DNA of 64,000 nt from Sporosarcina sp. BI001-red (GTDB taxonomy: Bacteria > Bacillota > Bacilli > Bacillales_A > Planococcaceae). Location: the NCBI RefSeq assembly GCF_003384035.1, contig NZ_QQAK01000013.1:124001-188000 (forward strand), written 5' to 3'. Numbering within the stretch: position 1 is the stretch's first letter; the number at the start of each line of letters is the position of its first letter. Positions 23,556-59,185 of this stretch are shown here, piece after piece. The notes under the pieces were generated by a model that worked only from the letters and a program-made list of their open reading frames with translations, was not told where the DNA came from and did not search any database. Position numbers and translations under genes: made by a program.

Positions 23556-23803
23556 CAATAGAAGTTGACGTTGACGGAAATTAGTAAGCGAGAATATCCT
23601 TTTCAGAGAGCTGACGATAGCTGCGAGTCAGTAAGGTACCTTGGTGAACTCACTTCCTGAGTCTGCACGTAAGTGAGCGAATCGTGCCGTTTTTTCCGCG
23701 TTAAGGAGTCAAGTTGGGCGGTGTATACCGTCAATTTGGGTGGTACCGCGGGAACCTGTCTTCACTCTCGTCCCTTGTTTAGTGGGGACGGGAGTTTTTT
23801 ATT
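23556..23803 (+). promoter_or_regulatory. T-box leader (leucine, CUC specifier) of leuS
   Basis: Transcription-attenuating riboswitch that reads uncharged tRNA-Leu. Stem I contains the conserved AGAGAG (near 23607) and a specifier loop GGTGAACTCACTT in which CTC at 23649-23651 is the Leu codon. The T-box sequence GGGTGGTACCGCGGG is at 23738-23752. The terminator stem (CTCTCGTCCC with GGGACGGGAG) and T-run end at 23803. Antitermination occurs when the tRNA CCA end pairs with the T-box. Confidence 0.93.
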
Positions 23804-26356: not shown

Positions 26357-26734
26357 AACCCGCCCGTTTCGCGCAGGAACCCGCTCGTTCTCACGTGCAA
26401 CCCGCTCGTTTCGCGCAGGAACCCGCTCGTTCCGCGCCGGAACCCGCTCGTTCCGCGCAGGAACCCGCCCGTTTCGCGCTAGAACCCTCTCGTTTCGCGC
26501 CGGAACCCGCCCGTTGTTACGAGCAACCCGCCCGTTCCGCGCTAGAACCCGCCCGTTCCCACGAGCAACCCGCCCGTTCCGCGCCGGAACCCGCCCGTTC
26601 TCACGTGCAACCCGCTCGTTCCGCGCTAGAACCCGCTCGTTCCGCGCAGGAACCCGCCCGTTCCCACATTCAACCCGCTCATTCCGCGCTAGAACCCGCT
26701 CGTTCCGCGCAGGAACCCGCCCGTTCCCACGATG
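26357..26734. repeat. tandem array, 18 units of 21 bp, GC-rich
   Basis: Eighteen head-to-tail units with no length change, starting every 21 bp from 26357 to 26714. Each has a near-constant 12-base core AACCCGCYCGTT and a 9-base variable end of two types: A (YCGCGC plus AGG, CGG or TAG) and B (CYCACG-like or GTTACG-like, ending GC). Order by eye is ABAAAAABABABAABAAB, and the last two triplets (units 13-15 and 16-18) form a higher-order 63-bp repeat. It lies between the leuS terminator and the terminator of the convergent flavoprotein gene, so it should be outside both mRNAs. Both strands carry a 7-residue-periodic open frame, which I consider a by-product of the 21-bp period. Confidence 0.95.
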
Positions 26735-52969: not shown

Positions 52970-55900
52970 TTAGTCACCGTCTGAATCGCCCTCACCGCCA
53001 CCATCCCCACCGTTAGCAGGGGGCTTCGGTTTTCCATCGTTGCCACCGTTAGCAGGGGGCTTCGGTTTCCCATCGCCTCCACCGTTAGCAGGGGGTTTCG
53101 GTTTCCCGTCGCCTCCACCATTAGCAGGTGGTTTTGGTTTCCCATCCCCACCGCCATTTGCCGGTGGCTTCGGTTTCTCATCTCCGCCACCGTTAGCAGG
53201 GGGTTTCGGTTTGTTATCTGTTCCCGTGTTTGAATCTGGAGGTGTCGTTCCTGTATTGCCACCACTATCTCCTGACCCACTATTTGAGTCGTCCGGTGTT
53301 TCCGTTTTAGGTGGTTCGGCCCCAGTCGTGACTGCGTTTGAAGCCGCGGAAGTCAATCCCGTTATATCTACAGCTCGTACCGTATAGGTTCCTCTTCCTA
53401 TAGGGAAAGAAAGTGACTGACCATCTCGGATTGTCCCTACACGCGTTCCGCCATTGTAGACATAATATCCAATGACATCATTTGACGGTGAAGCGCTCCA
53501 AGTCAATACAGAACCATTCTGCGAAGCGGCCACACCTGCTGGCGCTACACTGTCGGCAGGGAAGATTGCACCCGATACAACGCGGGATGCAAATAGTGAT
53601 TTTGTTGGGAATAACTTAGATGCATCTCCACCAAGAGGTCCAAGCATCCGTTTGATGAATTCTTGATTAACCCCTACGCCACCAGCTGTAATGAACTCAG
53701 AAGGCGTTGAAGGCAATGCGGCATATCTAGTTCCTTTAACAGATACAGAAGATGATGAAATGATACTGTCATCCGGTTTGTTAGGGAGCATGACATTCGC
53801 ATTGAATAGATCAGAGCGGACCAAACCTGCAGCTGAACATGCAGCTGACGGCGCAAGACCAGAAATTCCACAGAATGAGCGGTTTACAACGCCTTGTGGC
53901 TGTTGGAAACGAACATTTTGACCAACCGTGTCAGGTCGTGCCTCGTTGATGGCATTCATGAGTTGTGCATATAAAGCGTTTGTACGTGAACTTGCGGTTC
54001 CATATTGTGCATTTCCTGGACTTTCTAGAGATTTGGTCTGGTACTTATAGCCAAGCCACACACCAAGAGAAACGTTAGGATTATAACCAAGTAGCCATGC
54101 GTCACTGAATGAGTTCGTCGTACCACTTTTTGCTGCAATATCGACATTGAAATTCAGTTTGCTTTTCATTACTTTTGCTGTACCGCTGGATGCTACATCA
54201 CGAAGCATATCTGTCACAATGTATGCAGTTTGCGGGCTGAATACCTGTTCAGGTTCAACTTTATGTTGGTAAATAATTTTACCGCTACTATCTTCTATCT
54301 TATCAACAATGTAAGGATCTACGTGTTGTCCACCATTTGCAAGTGTGGAATAGGCGCTTGTATTTTCTTGCACAGTACCTCCATACCTCAACCCACCCAA
54401 GGCAGCAGATAGGTTTTCATAATCACCTTTTACTAGGCTCGTATAACCCATTTTCTCCAAAAACTCAGCGGGACGTCGATCGATAATCTGACTATAGAGA
54501 CGAAGTGCCGCTAGGTTTTGTGAAGTCGTAAGTGCTTGGCGAGCTGAAATGATGCCTAGCTCTTGAGTCGGGATGAAGTTCGCAGGAGAATAAGATCCAG
54601 CTTTAAATTTCACATCGACAACCGGGCTTCCTGCACCGATGACCCCATACTCAATAGCAGGTGCGTAGACAAGTAAAGGCTTGATGGTAGATCCGGGCTG
54701 TCGGATTGTTTGAGTTGCGTGATTCGTCGCTTCTAACTCATGGTCTCGACCACCCACAAAGGCTAAGATTTTTCCTGTCTTATTGTCCAATAACGTTGCA
54801 CCGACTTGCACTGGCATTTTCTCTGATTTCTTTTCACCAGTCTGTTTGTTAGTAGAATCTTGTGTGAAAGTGAACCCATACTGAGTGAAGTTCTCCGCAA
54901 CATCGTTCATGGCATTATAGAGTTGCAAATCTACGGTCGAATAAATACGGAAACCATCATTTCTCATGGATCGCTCTGCTAAAATTTCATATTTCGTTTT
55001 GAGTTTTTTATCTTCTACTAATCGGTCAGCATCTATGCCATCTTCTTCTGCAATTTTATCAGCGAGAATGGCAATTGTGCTACGCTGTATTTCATCCGTT
55101 AAAAATTCATCTCTGCTCTTTGGGGCAGGGGCTGCAGTTCTGAAGTCCTTTGTAATATCGTAAGCAATGGCTTCATTATATTCTTTTTCGGTAATGTATT
55201 CTGTTTCTCTCATTCGGAATAATACAGTTTTCATGCGATTGATGCCAGGTTTTAATCCTTTTTCATCTTTCAACCCGTTGGATCCGTTATAAAAAGGAGT
55301 ATAGGCGAAAGGGGCCTGTGGAATCCCTGCTATGTAAGCAGCTTGAGCCAGGTTCAATTCTTTAGCAGTTTTATTGAAAATCCCTTCAGCGGCAGCTTCA
55401 ATTCCAGCCACGTTTCCGCCATTAGAATTACGGCCGTATGGAATAATATTCAAGTAAGCTTCGAGTATTTCATTCTTAGTCATGAAATGCTCTAAACGCA
55501 TCGCAAGCAAGAGTTCTTTCGCTTTACGCTCATAGGAGATTTCATTGGTTAGAATCTGGTTTTTAATGAGTTGTTGTGTAAGTGTAGATCCGCCAGTTTG
55601 ATTGTCGGAATTAGTGACATCTTGGAAAAGCCCACGGAAAACCGCTTTTGGGACAATCCCGTTATGAGTGTTAAAGTATTCATCTTCTGTCGCATAAACG
55701 GCATTGATAATATAAGGAGATACATCCTCGAGTTTGACTTCTTTCCTGTCAATGTCAGCCCGAACTTTCCTTAAATACTTTCCATTCGTATAGATTTCGG
55801 ATGTTTCTTCATAACTTAAAATTTCACTGCGCATTTCTTGTTTGGAACGAAGTGGTTCCTTTTCAACAAGCGAAGCAAAATAACCTGCCCCTACGGAAGC

Positions 55901-56059
55901 GCCGAAAACCGTTAACGTCAAACCGATAACTAAGAAAAGCAAAAAGAGATTCCAGATGACGCCTGAGGCAATCCGGGTATTTTTTGCCCATTTGGTTTTC
56001 TTGATCGCTTCGAATTTATCTTCAAGTTCATCAACACGTTTTTTGTCCTGTTTTGTCAA
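52970..56059 (-). CDS. class A penicillin-binding protein (bifunctional glycosyltransferase/transpeptidase) with Fn3 domain
   Basis: 1029-residue peptidoglycan polymerase. Order: cytoplasmic basic start, membrane span near 35-58, GT51 glycosyltransferase (about 85-260; catalytic TEDEYFNTHNG and GGSTLTQQLIKN), transpeptidase with SxxK in PGSTIKP, SQN in TTSQN and KSGTT. A C-terminal fibronectin type III domain (about 855-935) is followed by a tail of six 12-residue Gly/Pro/Lys repeats (KPKPPANGGGDG) and an acidic end. The architecture is PBP1A-type of the Bacillales (PonA-like). TTG at 56059 follows AGGAGG. Monocistronic, divergent from tyrS. Confidence 0.92.
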   Translation of the reverse strand: MTKQDKKRVDELEDKFEAIKKTKWAKNTRIASGVIWNLFLLFLVIGLTLTVFGASVGAGYFASLVEKEPLRSKQEMRSEILSYEETSEIYTNGKYLRKVRADIDRKEVKLEDVSPYIINAVYATEDEYFNTHNGIVPKAVFRGLFQDVTNSDNQTGGSTLTQQLIKNQILTNEISYERKAKELLLAMRLEHFMTKNEILEAYLNIIPYGRNSNGGNVAGIEAAAEGIFNKTAKELNLAQAAYIAGIPQAPFAYTPFYNGSNGLKDEKGLKPGINRMKTVLFRMRETEYITEKEYNEAIAYDITKDFRTAAPAPKSRDEFLTDEIQRSTIAILADKIAEEDGIDADRLVEDKKLKTKYEILAERSMRNDGFRIYSTVDLQLYNAMNDVAENFTQYGFTFTQDSTNKQTGEKKSEKMPVQVGATLLDNKTGKILAFVGGRDHELEATNHATQTIRQPGSTIKPLLVYAPAIEYGVIGAGSPVVDVKFKAGSYSPANFIPTQELGIISARQALTTSQNLAALRLYSQIIDRRPAEFLEKMGYTSLVKGDYENLSAALGGLRYGGTVQENTSAYSTLANGGQHVDPYIVDKIEDSSGKIIYQHKVEPEQVFSPQTAYIVTDMLRDVASSGTAKVMKSKLNFNVDIAAKSGTTNSFSDAWLLGYNPNVSLGVWLGYKYQTKSLESPGNAQYGTASSRTNALYAQLMNAINEARPDTVGQNVRFQQPQGVVNRSFCGISGLAPSAACSAAGLVRSDLFNANVMLPNKPDDSIISSSSVSVKGTRYAALPSTPSEFITAGGVGVNQEFIKRMLGPLGGDASKLFPTKSLFASRVVSGAIFPADSVAPAGVAASQNGSVLTWSASPSNDVIGYYVYNGGTRVGTIRDGQSLSFPIGRGTYTVRAVDITGLTSAASNAVTTGAEPPKTETPDDSNSGSGDSGGNTGTTPPDSNTGTDNKPKPPANGGGDEKPKPPANGGGDGKPKPPANGGGDGKPKPPANGGGDGKPKPPANGGNDGKPKPPANGGDGGGEGDSDGD
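53005..53222 (-). repeat. 36-bp tandem repeats coding for the PBP tail
   Basis: Six copies at an exact 36-bp spacing (the ACGTTAGCAGG-like landmark TTAGCAGG at 53013, 53049, 53085, 53121, 53157 as ATTTGCCGG, 53193). They keep the reading frame and differ at a few synonymous sites, so they are maintained at protein level but could expand or shrink by slippage. Confidence 0.85.
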
Positions 56060-56157: not shown

Positions 56158-56395
56158 AGTTACTCTTCACAGTGAAGAAGCCGCAGTAGTGGCAGGTGAT
56201 CCGCATAGAGAGGCAGCGGTTGGTGGAAGCTGCTCGGTATCCTGTTTACGAATTACAACTTCGGAGTGTTGCGCGGATAGCGGCGTTATTGCTAAAAAAG
56301 CGGAGATAATTATCTCAAGCTGGGTGGTACCGCGCTTACATGTACAATTAGCGTCCCTGCATGATCTATTTCAGATCGTGTAGGGACTTTTTGTG
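56158..56395 (+). promoter_or_regulatory. T-box leader (tyrosine, UAC specifier) of tyrS
   Basis: Leader riboswitch reading uncharged tRNA-Tyr. Stem I has the conserved AGAGAGG (near 56205); the specifier region GAATTACAACTT holds TAC at 56254-56256. T-box sequence TGGGTGGTACCGCG is at 56321-56334. The terminator GTCCCTGCATGATCT with its partner and TTTTT ends near 56393. Confidence 0.93.
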
Positions 56396-56402
56396 CTTGT
56401 GA

Positions 56403-57692
<1,290 letters not shown>

Positions 57693-57706: not shown

Positions 57707-57740
57707 AGAGAGAAGGAGCTAGCTCCTTCTCTTTTTTTGT
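57707..57740 (+). terminator. tyrS terminator
   Basis: AGAGAAGGAGCT pairs with AGCTCCTTCTCT, an unbroken palindrome, followed by T7. Confidence 0.92.
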
Positions 57741-57760: not shown

Positions 57761-58517
57761 ATGCGCTCATAAATTGCGAGAAGTGATCATAACTCAGGGG
57801 AAGCGCTCATAAACTTTGAGGGGGGATCATAACTCTGGGAAAGCGCTCATAAAACGTGGGAAGTGATCATAACTTTGGGGAAGCGCTCATAAATGGCTGA
57901 AAGTGATCATACCCCAAGGGAAACCGCTCATAAATCGCTAAAAGTGATCATACCCCAAGGGAAACCGCTCATAAATTGTGAAAAGTGATCATAACTCTGG
58001 GAAACCGCTCATAAATGGCTGAAAGTGATCATAACCCAGGGAAACCGCTCATAAATGGCTGAAAGTGATCATAACCCTGGGGAACCGCTCATAAAACTTG
58101 GGAAGTGATCATAACCTTTGGGAACCGCTCATAAAACGTGGAAAGTGATCATAACTTTTGGGAACCGCTCATAAAACGTGGAAAGTGATCATAACTCTGG
58201 GAAACCGCTCGTAAAACGTGAAAAGTGATCTTAACTCTGGGAAACCGCTCATAAATGGCTGAAAGTGATCATAACCCTGGGAAACCGCTCATAAATGGCT
58301 GAAAGTGATCATAAACCCTGGGGAACCGCTCATAAATTGTGAAAAGTGATCATAACCCTGGGGAACCGCTCATAAAACGTGAAAAGTGATCATAACCCGG
58401 GGAAACCGCTCGTAAAACGTGAAAAGTGATCATAACCTTTGGGAACCGCTCATAAATCGCGAAAAGTGATCATAACCCGGGGAAACCGCTCATAAATGGC
58501 TGAAAGTGATCATAATC
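57761..58517. repeat. tandem array, 19 units of ~40 bp, each two 20-bp half-units
   Basis: Nineteen GCTCATAA (or GCTCGTAA) cores start at 57765 and recur every 40 bp, with three 41-bp steps (57926, 57967 and 58328). Each is followed 20-21 bp later by TGATCATAA, so the two half-units alternate strictly. Half 1 is roughly ACCGCTCATAAATGGCTGAA; half 2 roughly AGTGATCATAACCCTGGGAA; they share G-N-TCATAA and a closing GAA. The variable parts fall in a few types (TGGCTGA, ACGTGAA, TTGTGAA, TCGCGAA). The period and many stops rule out coding. It lies between the tyrS terminator and the rpsD terminator, so it is outside both mRNAs. Confidence 0.95.
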
Positions 58518-58536
58518 CCAAAATGCACTTAACAAA

Positions 58537-58570
58537 CAAAAAAATCCCTTCCGGAAAATCCGGAAGGGAG
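58537..58570 (-). terminator. rpsD terminator
   Basis: Minus strand TCCCTTCCGGA / TCCGGAAGGGA with a 3-base loop, then T-rich sequence. Confidence 0.9.
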
Positions 58571-58582
58571 GTGAACTCAATA

Positions 58583-59185
58583 TTAACGTGAGTAGAATTC
58601 AACGATAAGAGCTTCGTTGATTTCAGCAGCAAGTTCGCTGCGCTCTGGAAGACGTACGAAACTACCGACTTTAGTGTCAGCGTTGAACGATACGAACTCA
58701 GGTACGTAGCTGTTGATTTCGATTGATTCGTTAACGATATCAAGGTTTTGTGATTTTTCACGAAGAGAAATCTCTTGACCTGGCTTCACGCTGTAAGATG
58801 GGATATCTACGCGCTTACCGTCTACCATGATGTGACCGTGGTTTACAAGCTGGCGAGATGCACGACGTGTGCGAGCAAGACCAAGACGGTAAACGATGTT
58901 GTCCAAGCGAGTTTCAAGAAGGATCATGAAGTTCTCACCGTGGATTCCTTGCATTTTACCTGCTTTGTTGAACAATGTGCGGAACTGACGTTCATTCACA
59001 CCGTACATGAAGCGAAGTTTTTGTTTCTCTTGTTGTTGAAGACCATATTCAGAAAGTTTTTTACGCTGGTTCGGGCCGTGTTGACCTGGAGCGTAAGGAC
59101 GCTTTTCGATTTCTTTACCTGTGCCGCTTAGTGAGATACCAAGACGACGAGATTGTTTCCAAGATGGACCTGTATAACGAGCCAT
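58583..59185 (-). CDS. rpsD: 30S ribosomal protein S4
   Basis: 200-residue primary 16S rRNA-binding protein of the small subunit; also a translational repressor of its own mRNA in Bacillales. The opening [19 protein letters not shown], the [20 protein letters not shown] segment (in part) and the S4 domain [21 protein letters not shown] (in part) are clear. ATG at 59185 follows GAGGAGGAG. Monocistronic with its own promoter, leader and terminator. Confidence 0.97.

Follow-up and report, generated by a model that had tools for sequence, protein, structure and literature searches.

A helically phased repeat array between convergent genes of Sporosarcina as a candidate protein-binding DNA element

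The gap between the convergent genes tyrS and rpsD of Sporosarcina sp. BI001-red holds a long array of alternating 20-bp half-units, one member of a family here called F1. The view that this array is a selected, helically phased element acting at the level of DNA appears well supported, and its features are better explained by a DNA-binding or DNA-wrapping element of an undescribed kind than by random repeat slippage. What might such an element do? The reading we favour, at about even odds (a probability of roughly 0.5), is a curved platform of many sites that would be cooperatively bound or wrapped by a putative protein and would form a topological boundary between transcription units; protein binding, DNA wrapping and a topological benefit are the steps that we infer.

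Bacterial intergenic repeats are usually dismissed as slippage products or parasites. Here, comparative data indicate purifying selection site by site, a kept position, and a helical geometry common to unrelated sequences. They raise a testable question, namely whether bacteria set architectural or topological elements at fixed places between convergent genes, and by which protein such elements are read.

Structure and setting of the array

The window, that is, the whole stretch of 64,000 nucleotides that was analysed, carries the array on the forward strand at 57764..58526, as located by sequence reading, TRF, unit parsing, and AA/TT phasing. It consists of 38 half-units of 20 bp (19 x 40 bp) in which two cores, A (CGCTCATAA) and B (TGATCATAA), alternate; a few cores carry a single change, for example CGCTCGTAA, TGATCTTAA, TGATCATAC, and GGATCATAA. 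Unit parsing gives a half-unit step of 20 bp in 34 of 37 cases and of 21 bp in the other three, and TRF reports 57764-58515/58520 with periods of 20/40/80/120, 18.7 copies of 40 bp and scores of 751-945. The original prediction of nineteen 40-bp units made of two alternating 20-mers, with three one-base changes of step, agrees with all of these analyses. Its interval, 57761-58517, finds the array and ends too early, cutting about 10 bp from the last half-unit, which unit parsing ends at ~58526. No gene was found over 57764-58526; a coding role was rejected, as had been predicted, because no open reading frame of at least 60 amino acids covers the array and its period is not divisible by three.

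The left neighbour, tyrS (tyrosyl-tRNA synthetase; 56427..57692, forward strand), was identified by PF00579, SYY C-terminal and S4 domain matches, and the right neighbour, rpsD (ribosomal protein S4; 58583..59185, reverse strand), by PF00163 and S4, which bears out the claim that the array lies between convergent genes. Pattern matching predicts two intrinsic-terminator-like hairpins, that of tyrS (57707..57734, forward) on the left of the array and that of rpsD (58545..58569, reverse) on its right. With such a hairpin between each gene and the array, the array would, on the evidence of sequence, belong to neither transcription unit, and the earlier claim that it sits in no mRNA holds as far as terminators show. 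Promoter-like sites at this locus are no more frequent than in shuffled sequences. Upstream of tyrS, a gene for a class A penicillin-binding protein (52970-56059) has a C-terminal 36-bp (12-residue) repeat at 53007-53212 that is rich in P, G, and K.

Does the array act as RNA or as DNA? Base pairs inside the units show no covariation, the RNA fold is no better than in shuffles (z between -1.2 and +0.2), the array contains no inverted repeats of at least 10 bp, and Rfam has no match there. An RNA or hairpin role was rejected for these reasons, and DNA, not RNA, is the likely actor. The only Rfam matches in the window are two T-box leaders, at 23562-23778 (5' of a leuS-like gene) and 56163-56361 (5' of tyrS). 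The same fold and inverted-repeat results uphold the exclusion of REP elements made in the original prediction. Its exclusion of CRISPR is equally sound: CRISPR repeats measure ~23-50 bp, have unique spacers of similar length and lie near cas genes, in contrast to this array of 20-bp units with ~10 variable bases, whose neighbours are tyrS and rpsD and which Rfam does not match.

The units are set in register with the DNA helix. AA/TT power is 19.9 at 10.0 bp as against 2.5 at 20 bp and 2.3 at 10.5 bp, and in the tyrS-rpsD array it reaches 77 at 10.04 bp as against 5.6 +- 1.9 in shuffles; each 20-bp unit holds a pair of A-tract positions separated by half its length. Half-units of close to two helical turns, as predicted, are thus seen both in the 20-bp steps and in the 10.0-bp AA/TT period. 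A simple wedge model predicts a curvature of 95.7 degrees per 100 bp for the arrays and 62.5 for shuffles, a ratio of ~1.5. An AA/TT period that matches the helical turn, with a signal above shuffles, is the mark of helically phased A-tracts, and the array shares such phasing and predicted curvature with the A-tract clusters of bacterial nucleoids. Those clusters are described as statistical and without a fixed core, whereas F1 has a fixed core every 20 bp.

A dispersed family and arrays of unrelated sequence

The original prediction called for the repeat to be sought in the whole genome and its relatives, and this search reveals a dispersed family. A genome-wide pattern count finds 231 A-B dimers (116 + 115) in the source genome, G000 (G001, G007, and so on are other Sporosarcina genomes), and none for a reversed-pattern control. 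At least one dimer is present in 21 of 68 Sporosarcina genomes, with high copy number in about ten. F1 is sporadic in the wider family, and when many prokaryote genomes were scanned, nearly all matches came from Sporosarcina; F1 is abundant in one clade of this genus. Unbiased sampling of ~1.26 Mb of G000 yielded 19 F1 arrays, a density that corresponds to about fifty arrays in a whole genome. The number of units per array ranges from 3 to 43 with a peak at 8 (43 of 165 arrays), and the core-to-core step is 20 bp in 1084 of 1171 cases. In G007 the arrays look crowded on the right of the origin: counting by hand puts 16 of its approximately 44 F1 clusters at 0-0.36 Mb of contig C1, just right of dnaA, in 11% of the chromosome.

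Where do the arrays lie? By simple ORF-based gene calls, 25 of 60 arrays (42%) occupy convergent gaps, as against a background of 16% (p about 1e-6), three of 60 are in divergent gaps, and about half are in tandem gaps. Promoter avoidance could explain part of this placement. A similar leaning towards convergent gaps is seen by eye for low-copy arrays, of several families, in other genomes.

F1 is not the only family of this kind. Nearly all non-coding tandem arrays of at least 60 bp in the sampled DNA have periods of 20-22 bp or multiples thereof, with unrelated cores such as TCAAGC (F2), CCGCTCGTT (F3), and CTCCGACAC. An F3 array lies in the window itself, on the forward strand at 26357..26727, where TRF, AA/TT phasing and gene calls show 21-bp units (AACCCGCTCGTTCCGCGCAGG) flanked by a leuS-like and a flavoprotein-like gene that converge on the array; the 21-bp period itself probably accounts for the long open frames that cross it. 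Arrays of TGTCCGATA recur with 21-bp spacing in other genera. The AA/TT periods of the other families are 10.0-10.5 bp, clear in F2, F3, and CGCGCG arrays and weaker in TGTCCGATA and short arrays.

The tyrS-rpsD slot shows how such families can substitute for each other. In G007 it is occupied by F1, in G001, G024, and G025 by CGCGCG arrays, and in G060 and G061 by TGTCCGATA arrays, and in more distant species no array was found there. Array families of 20-21 bp and unrelated sequence thus have helical phasing in common, and one can replace another at this locus; since sister species have other families or none, the F1 sequence is not essential at that slot. These exchanges allow a second reading, tentative and distinctly less probable than the platform, in which patches wrapped much like nucleosomes, each of 160 bp or 16 helical turns with 8 phased sites, would sit at fixed positions between transcription units, with geometry and position under selection and the core family (TCATAA, TCAAGC, CCGCTCGTT, TGTCCGATA, or CGCGCG) interchangeable. 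A core family that can be swapped would imply either fast-changing partner proteins or one wrapper of low specificity.

An origin from phages or plasmids was rejected, since BLAST with the array found no match in plasmid and phage collections and the viral contigs that match the 20-bp register do so through simple repeats that are not related to it. A mobile element with fixed ends was likewise discarded: arrays of Sporosarcina koreensis often end in CGCTCATAACTTCACA, but a search for flank motifs found no common ends elsewhere, and the arrays stay put between G007 and G000.

Conservation across species

The F1 core has the consensus GGAAAG-YGMTCATAAA in two alternating types. Over 20 orthologous 8-unit pairs of equal structure, which come from three loci with 2-5 species each, divergence in the core NGNTCATA is 0.00 at positions 2 and 4-8 and 0.04 at position 9, as against 0.29-0.48 at positions 11-16 between the cores; the flanks of these pairs are mostly 81-92% identical. 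The array finder demands TCATAA with at most one mismatch, so core positions 4-9 are partly ascertained. Positions outside this criterion are equally fixed: of 1833 units, 1799 have G at position 2 and 1825 have A or C at position 3. In the S. koreensis arrays, the cores are fixed and the intervening bases differ in every unit. Comparison thus indicates purifying selection on the core against freely changing spacers.

Orthologous arrays align unit by unit across species. Sister species keep position, orientation, and the 20-bp spacing, often with exactly 8 units, and all ten G007 arrays whose flanks occur in the sampled G000 DNA are matched there by an F1 array on the same strand. Array length is identical in 21 of 25 orthologue pairs with equal unit number and at most 1 bp off in the rest, while the adjacent flanks vary in length. 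The original prediction had left a choice between selected spacing and a young array: the step and array length kept across orthologues support the former, and the positions conserved in species whose flanks are ~85% identical leave youth unsupported. Even the order of A and B cores is maintained, with alternation at 252 of 352 steps in arrays whose spacers are all different (shuffles: mean 187, maximum 216).

Could the arrays nevertheless be neutral or selfish, seeded by chance, spread by recombination, grown by slippage and merely tolerated between convergent genes? This is unlikely. The range of 3-43 units, which fits the selfish VNTR suggested earlier, the homogeneous 40/80/120-bp blocks of long arrays and the permissive nature of convergent gaps would all suit it. 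However, F1 arrays show the position-specific constraint that neutral VNTRs lack: between orthologues, cores are invariant and lengths identical while spacers are free, alternation persists despite unrelated spacers, and positions have long been held. Fixed cores, lengths and positions, the 8-unit peak and the alternation are not what neutral slippage predicts; with constrained cores and spacing at orthologous sites, slippage would rather alter the length of a constrained element.

Possible roles, candidate partners and described systems

The platform that we favour would present a row of sequence-specific sites on one face of curved DNA, two turns apart, with a basic size of 8 sites or 160 bp. 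Curved DNA that lies between terminators, shows no RNA structure and carries fixed cores at a constant helical distance reads as a protein platform. Most likely, a putative DNA-binding or DNA-wrapping protein would cover the row cooperatively, a wrapped nucleoprotein patch would form between the terminators of neighbouring genes, and this patch would act as a topological boundary, or as a sink for the positive supercoils that convergent transcription drives together. It is the placement of the arrays that suggests the role in supercoiling. Phased protein binding and supercoil buffering, two roles named in the original prediction, are likewise inferred. Longer arrays, such as that of 38 half-units, would have grown from an ancestor of 8 sites as blocks of 40/80/120 bp were duplicated in tandem, as suggested by the homogeneity of their spacers and by the 8-unit arrays elsewhere.

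Which protein might bind? RemA sites in Bacillus subtilis are AT-rich direct repeats in a ~10-bp register, for which wrapping round an octameric ring has been proposed (PMC8481266). RemA-wrapped regions resemble F1 in these repeats and this register, and differ in lying upstream of promoters and in being weakly conserved in sequence (PMC8481266). Despite its fitting ring and register, RemA was rejected as the wrapping protein, since PF04025 was found in none of the 68 Sporosarcina genomes, with B. subtilis and two other controls positive. Lrp/AsnC was also set aside, as the effector domain (PF01037) has no match in G000, with 11 of 14 controls positive; a divergent homologue could have escaped. 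Two octameric wrapping candidates thus fall away.

DNA gyrase is a further candidate, in our judgement an improbable one. Phased AA/TT and GC over ~160 bp would make the array a strong wrapping substrate, a landing site 3' of genes where positive supercoils are removed, as in E. coli BIME-2. The gyrase motif of E. coli spans 130 bp with GC content phased at 10.75 bp, and BIME-2 and the DNA downstream of strongly transcribed operons are rich in gyrase cleavage sites (PMC6379681). The phasing, 160-bp basic length and convergent placement of the arrays fit this idea, and array families may turn over in sequence with their geometry kept. Gyrase is, however, sequence-degenerate and universal, whereas F1 has invariant core positions (2 and 4-8), a period of 10.0 bp rather than 10.75 bp and high copy number in one clade only. 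The invariant cores favour a partner more specific than gyrase. BIME-2/REP elements are like F1 in their alternating unit types, their frequent position between convergent genes and the connection with gyrase and positive supercoils that has been proposed for them. They differ from this array in that each REP unit is an imperfect palindrome able to form a hairpin.

Among described kinds of repeat, the STAR elements of Staphylococcus aureus come closest, but F1 fails to conform to them in core and spacing. Both are interspersed intergenic direct repeats with a short fixed core and locus-specific spacers, variable in copy number, stable in position within species and of unknown function (PMC3532100). 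The STAR core given there has 14 bp, T(G/A/T)TGTTG(G/T)GGCCC(C/A), and its copies are separated by at least 40 bp (PMC3532100), whereas the usual F1 step is 20 bp; it has no match in the window with up to one mismatch. The STAR text consulted describes no helical phasing, and STAR loci differ between species, in contrast to the orthologous loci kept by F1 (PMC3532100). The literature covered, which is incomplete, yielded no description of F1's helical phasing, 8-site size, alternation, conserved orthologous position across species or family swap at one slot, and exact-pattern searches gave only chance matches among the matches listed.

Direct repeats of ~20-22 bp on one helix face, in rows two helical turns apart, are typical of plasmid iterons and of the sites of some regulators that bind direct repeats. 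F1 shares this layout, and its basic row of 8 sites would suit a replication initiator, or an AraC/OmpR-type regulator, bound head to tail and titrated or handcuffed. This is rather doubtful, slightly more so than gyrase, for F1 is chromosomal and belongs to no replicon: about fifty copies are dispersed at gene 3' ends, no array matches plasmids or phages in the collections searched, and promoter-like sites do not exceed expectation.

A strict replication polarity of the KOPS type was also rejected. In G000, 18 of 19 arrays follow the local GC-skew strand, but elsewhere the rule holds for 56 of 99 arrays in related genomes and, by manual counting, for about 30 of the 44 clusters of G007, so polarity is at most a bias. 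That a bound array stops RNA polymerase as a terminator or anti-readthrough roadblock, or marks fork direction, is very improbable, since the position at gene 3' ends and the strand agreement in G000 that speak for it are set against a terminator-like hairpin predicted before the array for both genes, the failure of the strand rule elsewhere and the lack of an RNA fold.

Several other repeats were encountered along with these arrays. In S. koreensis S-K12 (L039, L070, L089, L090, L091, and L109), arrays occur in pairs ~300 bp apart, joined by a GC-rich linker with a GGCTTGTCGGCTCCGCTGCGCTCC-like sequence and sharing the conserved last unit CGCTCATAACTTCACA. Three viral contigs (L295, L298, and L300) carry TGTCCGATA sites in a common irregular layout (steps of 98, 34, 33 or 20, then 21 bp) that resembles a defined element of several sites, such as the end of a transposon. 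In G000, eight short arrays with a 21-bp unit like TTCTCCGACACATAGCGAAGT cluster within ~33 kb (C10, 108-141 kb; L173-L176). L089 contains, at ~760-1150, another tandem repeat of ~120 bp (...CCTCCAACGCCCGTCGGGACTGGCGAGCCGCCTGCGCTTTT...), which is perhaps related to a 124-bp repeat at 173843-174497 of contig C9 of G000.
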